Of a DNA stretch of 64,000 bases, positions 10,625-64,000 are shown in pieces. This stretch comes from Halobellus captivus. Its GTDB lineage: Archaea; Halobacteriota; Halobacteria; Halobacteriales; Haloferacaceae. The stretch's first letter is position 1. Each line of letters opens with the position of its first letter. Position numbers and translations under genes: made by a program. The notes below the pieces were generated by a model that searched no databases, had not been told where the DNA came from, and saw nothing but the letters and a program-made list of their open reading frames with translations. The stretch covers positions 153,436-217,435 of the forward strand of contig NZ_VJXQ01000002.1 in NCBI RefSeq assembly GCF_007655485.1, written 5' to 3'.

Positions 10625-10630
10625 GTTTAT
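10625..10630 (+). promoter_or_regulatory. TATA-like box of the upstream RNA element (copy 1)
   Basis: GTTTAT in GAGGGTTTATGACC lies about 28 nt before the conserved GTGACGTA at 10656. The second copy of the element has a TATA box at the same distance (62029-62035), so the promoter is part of the duplicated unit. Confidence 0.55.
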
Positions 10631-10655
10631 GACCGATCGAGCGGCCAGCACCCGC

Positions 10656-10762
10656 GTGACGTAGCAGCCATCCCGCGTTGTTCGCGATCGTTCGGCACGA
10701 CGACGCGGGAGTGGAGTCGACGGCGTCCGCGAGGGCGTGGTCGCGAGCGGTGTGCCGACTGT
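10656..10762 (+). ncRNA. Putative structured RNA element, copy 1 (upstream of DNA ligase)
   Basis: Non-coding element about three-quarters identical to 62059-62163. Hairpin P1 pairs 10671-10678 with 10703-10710 (TCCCGCGT/ACGCGGGA). It has a 6-nt bulge, then an inner stem 10685-10691/10697-10702 capped by TCGGC. P2 pairs 10718-10725 with 10736-10743 around a 10-nt loop containing CGCGAGG. TCGGCAC in and beside the P1 loop (10692-10698) is complementary to GTGCCGA at 10752-10758, a possible pseudoknot. A further hairpin (CCGACT/AGTCGG) may follow. The 345-nt spacer 10555-10899 holds no other gene I can support. It could be a free sRNA or the 5' leader of the ligase mRNA. Confidence 0.6.
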
Positions 10763-10899
10763 CAGCCCACAGTGCGATGGGAGTCGGTCGCGGGAGCCTC
10801 GACTCCGAGAGCTTCTGCACCGAACGTCGCATATCGGCCGCGAGGCGGTCCACCCCGGAGTCGGCGGACTCTTATCCGACCGTGCGATACTCCCTGCCG

Positions 10900-62028: not shown

Positions 62029-62035
62029 TTTATAT
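62029..62035 (+). promoter_or_regulatory. TATA box of RNA element copy 2
   Basis: TTTATAT within GCGAGCGTTTATATCCGG, with purine-rich BRE-like bases upstream, 27 nt before GTGACGTA at 62059. Same spacing as the copy-1 promoter. Confidence 0.7.
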
Positions 62036-62058
62036 CCGGAGACGAGGCCAACGCACCC

Positions 62059-62163
62059 GTGACGTAACAGACACCCCGCGTCGTCTGCGGTTGTTCGGCA
62101 CACCGGCGTGGGATGAGATCGGCGGCGCTCGCGAGGACGTCGCCGGAAGCGGGTGCCGACTGT
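62059..62163 (+). ncRNA. Putative structured RNA element, copy 2 (upstream of Lhr helicase)
   Basis: Second copy of the element at 10656-10762. P1 pairs 62074-62081 with 62106-62113 (with G-U wobbles where copy 1 has G-C and A-U). It has the same 6-nt bulge and an inner stem capped by TCGGC. P2 pairs 62120-62127 with 62138-62145 around a 10-nt loop. Changes are partly compensatory: A-U in copy 1 P2 is G-C here, and an inner P1 C-G is U-A here. TCGGCAC (62095-62101) is complementary to GTGCCGA (62153-62159). A short hairpin CGTGCT-GAC-AGCACG follows at 62190-62204. The spacer to 62374 also holds a 26-bp repeat. Confidence 0.62.
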
Positions 62164-62235
62164 TCGCCAAATTCCCGGGGAGATCTCGGACGTGCTGACA
62201 GCACGGTCTCCCCAGCGACAGTACCGAATGGGGAA

Positions 62236-62347
62236 GAATCCACGTCTCCGTTCGTACGGCAGAACCCACGTCTCCGTTCGTACGGCAGAATCCACGTCTC
62301 CGTTCGTACGGCAGAACCCACGTCTCCGTTCGTACGGCAGAACCCAC
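62236..62347 (+). repeat. Four 26-bp tandem repeats upstream of the Lhr gene
   Basis: Units at 62236-62261, 62262-62287, 62288-62313 and 62314-62339, plus 8 nt of a fifth. Each reads GAAYCCACGTCTCCGTTCGT then ACGGCA. CCGT-TCGT-ACGG in every unit can fold into a 4-bp hairpin. The repeat ends at the TATA-like ACTTATCC element, about 28 nt before the ATG. Confidence 0.92.
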
Positions 62348-62374
62348 TTATCCGTCCGCACCAACCTACGCACG

Positions 62375-64000
62375 ATGCCGAAGAGCGGGCGCGAGTTGCT
62401 CCGACGGGTCGCCGCCGCAGGCGAAGAGACAGCCACAGGCGAGGAGGCAGCTAGCGCGCCCGCCGCCACCACTCCGGCGGCGAACGGCGAGGCAGCCGAT
62501 TCAGCGGGGAGCACGGAGAGCGACGCGTCGACACCGGCGTTCGAGTTCGATCCCGAATCCGTCGACATCGCCGACGAGGACGTGCTCGACCGGCTCGAAC
62601 CGTCGGTTCGCGAGTGGTGGATCGAGCGGTTCGGCCGCTACGTCGCGCAGAACGGCGGGTTCTTCACGCCGCCGCAGCGCGAGGCGATTCCGCTCGTCGA
62701 CGAGGGTGAGAACGCACTCGTGTGCGCCCCGACCGGCTCCGGCAAGACCCTCGCGAGCTTCACCGCGATCCTGAACGAGCTGTTTCGTCGCGGTCGCGAG
62801 CGCGAGGACGGTCTCGACAACAGGGTGTACTGCCTGTACATCTCGCCGCTGAAGTCGCTCGCGAACGACATCCACCGTAACCTCACTGTCCCGCTGGAGG
62901 GAATCCGTGCCCGGATGGACGACCGCGGCGAGGACGTCGACGTCCGGCACGCGATACGCCACGGCGACACCGACTCCGCGGAGCGGCAGCGGATGCTAGA
63001 GGAGACGCCCCACATCCTCAACACGACGCCGGAGACGCTCGCGATCTTACTCAACGCGCCGAAGTTCAAAGAGAAACTGCGAAGCGTCGAGTACGTCGTC
63101 GTCGACGAGATCCACAGTCTCGCGGCGAACAAGCGCGGAACGCACCTGTCGGTCTCCTTGGAGCGCCTCGATGCCCTCACGGACGCATCGCCGACCCGGA
63201 CCGGCTGCTCGGCGACCGTCGAGCCGCTCTCGGAGATGGCTGCGTTTCTCGTCGGCGGCGACGGAAACGGGGCGACTCGTGACTGCGAGATCGTCGACAC
63301 GCGGTTCGTCCGCGACTTCGACCTCCGATTAGAGTCTCCGACCGACGATCTGATCCACACCCCGCGATCGACGGTCCAAGCTGGGTTCTACGACCGGCTC
63401 CACGAACTCGTCGCGTCCCACGAGAACACGCTCGTCTTCACGAACACGCGCTCGGGCGCGGAGCGCGTGCTCGAAACGCTCCGAGAGCGCTTCGAGGACT
63501 ACGACGAGTCGAACTCGGGGTGTCACCACGGGAGCCTCTCCAAGGAGCGACGGCAGACTGTCGAAGAGGGACTGAAAGACGGCACTCTCGACGTCGTGAC
63601 CACCTCGACGAGCCTCGAACTCGGGATCGATATGCCGCATCTGGATCTGGTCGTGCAGGTCGGCTCGCCCAAGTCGGTGGCGTCGCTCCTGCAGCGCGTC
63701 GGCCGCGCCGGTCACAGCCTCGGACAGACCGTCGAAGGCCGCGTACTGGCGCTCGATCGAGACGAACTCGTCGAGTGCGCCGTGATGCTGCAGAAGGCCG
63801 AATCGGGCTTCGTTGACCGGGTCTTCATCCCGGAAAACGCCCACGACGTCGCCGCCCAACACGTCTACGGAATGGCGATCAACGACGTCCGCCGCGAGGG
63901 GGACGTGCTCGAAACGCTCCGCCGCGCGTATCCGTATCGGAACTACACCGACGACGACTGGGAGCGGCTGCTCCGGTATCTCACCGCCGATTACGACGGC
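62375..64000 (+). CDS. Lhr-type ATP-dependent DNA helicase (3' end outside the window)
   Basis: At least 542 aa of a superfamily 2 helicase, cut by the window edge. After a low-complexity Ala/Glu N-terminus (about 1-60) come the Q-like FFTPPQREAIPLV, Walker A APTGSGKT (118-125), ISPLKSLANDIHRNL (Ia), TTPETLAILL (Ib), DEIH (244-247), GCSATVEPL (III), LVFTNTRSGAERVLETL (IV), TTSTSLELGIDMPHLDLVVQVGSPKSVASLLQRVGRAGHS (V-VI). This is the Lhr family layout (repair helicase). Start ATG 62375, about 28 nt after an ACTTATCC TATA-like box, downstream of the 26-bp repeats and RNA element copy 2. Confidence 0.93.
   Translation, partial: MPKSGRELLRRVAAAGEETATGEEAASAPAATTPAANGEAADSAGSTESDASTPAFEFDPESVDIADEDVLDRLEPSVREWWIERFGRYVAQNGGFFTPPQREAIPLVDEGENALVCAPTGSGKTLASFTAILNELFRRGREREDGLDNRVYCLYISPLKSLANDIHRNLTVPLEGIRARMDDRGEDVDVRHAIRHGDTDSAERQRMLEETPHILNTTPETLAILLNAPKFKEKLRSVEYVVVDEIHSLAANKRGTHLSVSLERLDALTDASPTRTGCSATVEPLSEMAAFLVGGDGNGATRDCEIVDTRFVRDFDLRLESPTDDLIHTPRSTVQAGFYDRLHELVASHENTLVFTNTRSGAERVLETLRERFEDYDESNSGCHHGSLSKERRQTVEEGLKDGTLDVVTTSTSLELGIDMPHLDLVVQVGSPKSVASLLQRVGRAGHSLGQTVEGRVLALDRDELVECAVMLQKAESGFVDRVFIPENAHDVAAQHVYGMAINDVRREGDVLETLRRAYPYRNYTDDDWERLLRYLTADYDG

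Follow-up and report, generated by a model that had tools for sequence, protein, structure and literature searches.

A family of stand-alone pseudoknot RNAs with a start-X-stop frame in Halobellus captivus and other haloarchaea

In a 64,000-nucleotide stretch of the Halobellus captivus genome (contig NZ_VJXQ01000002.1, positions 153,436 through 217,435; herein the window), the element ahead of the helicase gene lhr (copy 2; residues 62029 through 62168 of the window) is a small-RNA gene under a separate promoter and belongs to a set of about 43 copies in this genome. The RNA is stand-alone and independent of lhr, an unrelated gene with a leaderless promoter of its own. Its conserved parts are a two-codon start-X-stop frame and, behind it, an H-type pseudoknot; its promoter is shared with leaderless genes of a type-IV-pilus-like system. 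A reading made from the letters of the window alone (herein the sequence-only reading) had likened copy 2 to a first copy (copy 1; 10625 through 10767). The likeness is real: BLAST within the window gives 109 of 149 identical positions (73%, E = 4e-22), and both copies match the family model, with scores of 141 and 127 bits.

A DNA search of the H. captivus genome (3.35 Mb, 21 contigs) returned more than 20 further places. The covariance model R1, built from 27 own-genome copies, has 46 matches in this genome, 43 of them above 50 bits; among the 17 genomes of Halobellus, 12 carry 19 to 61 matches each and five carry none. R2, a second covariance model lacking the promoter, matches 168 of 292 Halobacteria genomes and 44 of 77 genera, with about two copies per genome in Haloferax and many in Halobellus and some other genera. 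Against Rfam 15, a tRNA is the sole match in the window, and three loci searched individually (L001, L052, and L061) give no match at E ≤ 1. Nor is the element an archaeal C/D box RNA (C box RUGAUGA, D box CUGA): its 5′ motif is GUGACGUAA/GUGAUCUGA, with no C box and no Rfam match. The genomes under the Halobellus label with zero RNA copies (G014, G295, G297, G298, and G299) have lhr loci that look AT-richer.

The own-genome copies align nearly gap-free over the promoter and on as far as helix P1, in the order TTTATAT, GGCCA, GTG (30 nucleotides past the T that opens the TATA box), a single codon, and a stop; the TTTATAT box that the sequence-only reading had placed at the head of copy 2 is present. 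Helix P1 (9 to 10 base pairs) begins 7 nucleotides past the stop, a spacing that is constant in these copies. Its loop holds UCGGCAC; the pairing partner, GUGCCGA, lies on the far side of a variable region specific to each copy, and the last conserved part of the RNA is the box CUGUUCGCC (Table 1). P1 and P2 thus form two interleaved helices with covariation, that is, an H-type pseudoknot. P2 is 100% paired both in 27 own copies, with compensatory changes at four of its seven pairs, and in 43 sequences from many genera, where five of the seven pairs are changed on both sides. For the whole structure in the 43 sequences, 129 cells are changed on both sides compared with 40 in shuffles; none of 500 shuffles is as high, and every slid control collapses.

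The frame at the 5′ end has what defines a two-codon minigene: a start, one or two codons, and a stop under selection. The 139 distinct copies open with GTG in 121 cases, ATG in 12, and another triplet in 6, and their third triplet is TGA in 101, TAG in 21, TAA in 15, TGG in 1, and GAG in 1. A stop is therefore the third codon in 137 of 139 copies, with all three stop codons in use; the codon between start and stop varies widely (Thr, Ile, Arg, Ser, Leu, and others). With independent positions 8 and 9, 16 TGG triplets would be expected rather than the one observed, and the minimum in 20000 shuffles was 9, a figure that is not a probability as the copies are related by descent. RNA copies in a genome of another family (G036) use ATG as well as GTG. 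In a Haloferax subgroup (L064, L107, L132, and L133, orthologous to L100), the start codon has become ACG, ATA, or ATT and the stop is conserved.

The promoter pattern occurs at 46 places in the H. captivus genome versus 2 for a reversed control, and long protein frames begin exactly at the GTG/ATG position under the GGCCA promoter. Three low-scoring own-genome model matches (L101, 1201 through 1321; L102, 1201 through 1330; L103, 1201 through 1259) had been candidates for decayed RNA copies; they were rejected as such on proving to be protein genes that share the promoter alone, which revealed the regulon. In these loci the GGCCA-type promoter precedes leaderless type-IV-pilus-like protein genes. 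The genes under this promoter encode a T2SSE ATPase (T2SSF partner downstream, DUF7311 upstream), DUF7283 (followed by DUF7285 and DUF7284), an exported PLD-like protein, DUF7857 (followed by a ParA/MinD-like ATPase), a DUF7382 pilin-like protein, and a phosphohexomutase (named by eye), and they probably constitute an undescribed haloarchaeal regulon. In G036 the promoter also stands at T2SSE, DUF7283, and DUF7382 genes, as well as at a weak Cas4-like protein and DUF6735; in one Haloferax genome (G245) it precedes DUF7857, a ParA-like gene, and DUF7382. The promoter architecture is thus shared at fixed spacing; the −10 element proposed for haloarchaea is WW, not GGCCA (PMC4983044). One further pattern match (C15:326607), where no predicted gene starts, was set aside as probably due to chance.

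Because protein frames start at the equivalent position under the shared promoter, the comparison speaks for RNAs that begin, leaderless, at their GTG. The GGCCA-type promoter common to both makes it most likely that the RNAs and the type-IV-pilus-like system belong to one putative regulon and are switched on together; that the system takes part in DNA uptake is a guess based on its parts. Counted as raw genomes, uncorrected for phylogeny, DUF7283 or DUF7857 is present in 161 of 168 genomes with the RNA (96%) versus 62 of 124 without it (50%), and the archaellin control gives 86% versus 73%. DUF7283 and DUF7857 are still present in G014, the single RNA-less genome of the genus tested.

Our preferred reading, held at about even odds, is that the RNA acts while bound to ribosomes, as a decoy or regulator expressed together with the regulon; the gene-family, structure, and promoter parts of this reading are near certain, and we infer the ribosome part, along with the transcription start and the effect on translation. 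The transcript would most likely start at 62059, directly on the start codon, and so be leaderless. It would offer ribosomes the two-codon frame GUG-ACG-UAA, its 5′ start codon loading a ribosome for a product of one dipeptide at most. The ribosome would halt at the stop with the pseudoknot (P1 and P2) at its mRNA entrance, and for as long as the regulon is on, the RNA would serve as a decoy or regulator held on ribosomes. Constant 5′ distance, conserved start and stop, and a pseudoknot near the predicted mRNA entrance together suggest a function that involves engaging ribosomes.

Several observations weigh against this reading. Single-sequence folding of copy 2, by a program without pseudoknots, is no more stable than that of shuffles (z = −0.39) and is uninformative. 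Six copies begin with another triplet (ACG, ATA, ATT, ATC, or GTA) and retain the stop, and leaderless GUG starts are weak in Haloferax, at 2.6% of the AUG level in one reporter (PMC4983044). The co-occurrence percentages carry the limit given with them, and half of the genomes without detected RNA still hold regulon genes, so the regulon does not require the RNA. The non-start triplets, few as they are, and the weakness of GUG initiation, together with the strong preference for GUG over AUG (121 versus 12), would also fit the same stand-alone RNA family with a GUGNNNURR that ribosomes do not read, serving instead as a 5′ motif recognised by a protein or used in initiating transcription, with the loops or the variable region mediating action of the RNA in trans. 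We consider such a motif the less likely account, though a serious one: TAA, TAG, and TGA interchange while TGG is nearly absent, GTG and ATG exchange, protein genes have their start codon at the equivalent position, and the spacing to the pseudoknot is constant in the own-genome copies.

The RNA family is apparently undescribed; a limited literature search, which is no proof of absence, found no paper on it or on DUF7283, DUF7311, DUF7284, DUF7857, or DUF7382. More tentatively, the family may represent an undescribed archaeal RNA class of leaderless start-X-stop pseudoknot RNAs, with tens of paralogues in some genomes; such RNAs would trap or time ribosomes and be switched on along with a type-IV-pilus-like system that possibly serves DNA exchange. 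To our knowledge, no stand-alone RNA combines a leaderless start-X-stop frame with a pseudoknot. PreQ1-type riboswitches are likewise compact H-type pseudoknots with covariation, but they are cis leaders of mRNAs, whereas the present RNA lies outside any leader and lacks an Rfam match. The bar minigenes of phage lambda (two-codon open reading frames) and AUG-stop upstream open reading frames engage ribosomes with little or no product, as the frame of one or two codons may do here; they are located within mRNAs or depend on a ribosome-binding site, whereas the present frame stands at the very 5′ end of a structured RNA that is leaderless, stand-alone, and represented by tens of paralogues. We also know of no RNA family that is part of the Sulfolobales DNA-damage regulon.

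That regulon (Ups pili, Ced DNA import) resembles the present one in being a co-regulated archaeal pilus and DNA-import gene set (PMC11868833); it differs in that DNA import belongs to it, whereas DNA exchange by the pilus-like set here is a guess from parts. Closer to hand, intergenic small RNAs of Haloferax volcanii show ribosome occupancy without coding evidence (PMC12482152). They are, like the RNAs proposed here, haloarchaeal small RNAs on ribosomes without detectable protein, from a genus whose genomes each carry about two copies of the RNA described here; compared by description only, the consulted part of that source reports neither a start-X-stop frame nor a pseudoknot for them. Haloarchaea-wide small RNAs are thought to be rare, one survey finding only 3 of 27 H. 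volcanii small-RNA genes in over 10 further haloarchaea (PMC3956466), whereas the present family reaches 44 of the 77 sampled genera and up to about 61 copies per genome. It would connect leaderless translation initiation, a conserved pseudoknot, and a pilus-like regulon, and is testable in H. volcanii because Haloferax genomes hold only about two copies.

The many scattered copies per Halobellus genome, the lineage-specific expansion, and the use of both strands at one site could alternatively reflect a dispersed mobile repeat, akin to miniature inverted-repeat transposable elements or repetitive extragenic palindromes, in which the RNA structure is incidental. This is improbable given the strong compensatory changes across genera. 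Most tested Halobellus copies are also at orthologous loci, with positions largely conserved within the genus and two of them common to Haloferax, and the aligned copies have no apparent terminal inverted repeat. Some mobility in the spread of the copies is possible. Plasmid spread was rejected, with a single plasmid match (Halobellus limi). One low-scoring own-genome copy (L098, 1201 through 1344; C15:333383-333526), in which GAG replaces the stop, is likely a decaying paralogue.

The sequence-only reading had weighed a leader of about 315 nucleotides on the lhr mRNA (316 as measured from RNA start to ATG) against a stand-alone RNA beside a second, leaderless lhr promoter, and the latter pair is borne out. 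In the slot upstream of lhr, the RNA is co-directional with the gene in six Halobellus species including this one, as a leader would be, but lies on the opposite strand in four (G095, G296, G126, and G276) and has no family-model match in two (G030 and G048). The downstream gene is convergent for 17 of the first 28 own-genome copies, so the consistent co-directional upstream placement of a riboswitch or cis leader is absent. In the Halobellus lhr upstream regions read, lhr retains its own promoter (CAGAACCCACTTA..ATG). Because of the strand flips and non-detections beside lhr and that leaderless promoter, the RNA stands alone, and we reject a cis leader or riboswitch of lhr as highly implausible.

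Table 1. Features of the two RNA copies and of the lhr upstream region (window coordinates)
Feature	Position	Strand	Basis
TATA box, copy 2	62029-62035	+	TTTATAT; own-genome copies show TATA at equal place
GGCCA promoter element, copy 2 (−13 to −9)	62046-62050	+	GNCCA, fixed spacing in nearly all copies and leaderless protein genes
Leaderless two-codon frame GTG-ACG-TAA, copy 2; predicted RNA 5′ end 62059	62059-62067	+	Start-X-stop conservation; protein genes start at equivalent position
P1 helix, 5′ strand (CCCGCGUCG)	62075-62083	+	Covariation
Pseudoknot helix P2, 5′ strand (UCGGCAC)	62095-62101	+	100% paired; 5/7 pairs changed on both sides
P1 helix, 3′ strand (CGGCGUGGG)	62104-62112	+	Covariation
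Variable region, possible P3 hairpin (62120-62127/62138-62145)	62120-62145	+	P3 by eye; region differs among copies
Pseudoknot helix P2, 3′ strand (GUGCCGA)	62153-62159	+	Covariation, as P2 5′ strand
3′ box CUGUUCGCC, final conserved RNA part	62160-62168	+	Kept in genera sampled
GAC-loop hairpin CGTGCT-GAC-AGCACG, 3′ of copy 2	62191-62205	+	Read in sequence; outside conserved element
Four 26-base-pair tandem repeats, partial duplicates of lhr promoter unit	62232-62335	+	GGCAGAACCCACgtcTCCGTTCGTAC compared with 62336-62361 GGCAGAACCCACTTATCCGTCCGCAC
lhr promoter unit, fifth 26-base-pair unit; TTATCC 62348-62353, about 25 nucleotides before ATG 62375	62336-62361	+	
lhr helicase gene, cut by window end	62375-64000	+	Open reading frame; homologues in 17/17 genus genomes
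TATA box, copy 1 (TTTAT)	10625-10629	+	Alignment to copy 2
GGCCA element, copy 1	10642-10646	+	Alignment; promoter pattern
Two-codon frame GTG-ACG-TAG, copy 1	10655-10663	+	Start-X-stop alignment
Structured part, copy 1: P1 10671-10679/10700-10708, P2 10691-10697/10752-10758, 3′ box to 10767	10671-10767	+	

The TATA-like sequence suspected just before the lhr ATG is TTATCC, and the unit that holds it (CAGAACCCACTTAYYCG) is conserved about 25 nucleotides 5′ of the ATG in the Halobellus lhr upstream regions read. The unit is single in the other Halobellus regions among these and tandemly repeated here: between 62232 and 62361, four 26-base-pair repeats are tandem duplicates of it minus its TATA. 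These repeats are present as the sequence-only reading had reported; as duplicates of the promoter unit they need no explanation as RNA hairpins. The GAC-loop hairpin ascribed to copy 2 also exists, one base off the 62190 through 62204 given for it, and is probably not part of the RNA element because it lies outside the conserved element. In G095, an inverted repeat (GGGATTATCGTAA ... TTACGATAATCCC; L262, about 1180 through 1300) adjoins the RNA upstream of lhr and resembles a small mobile element.
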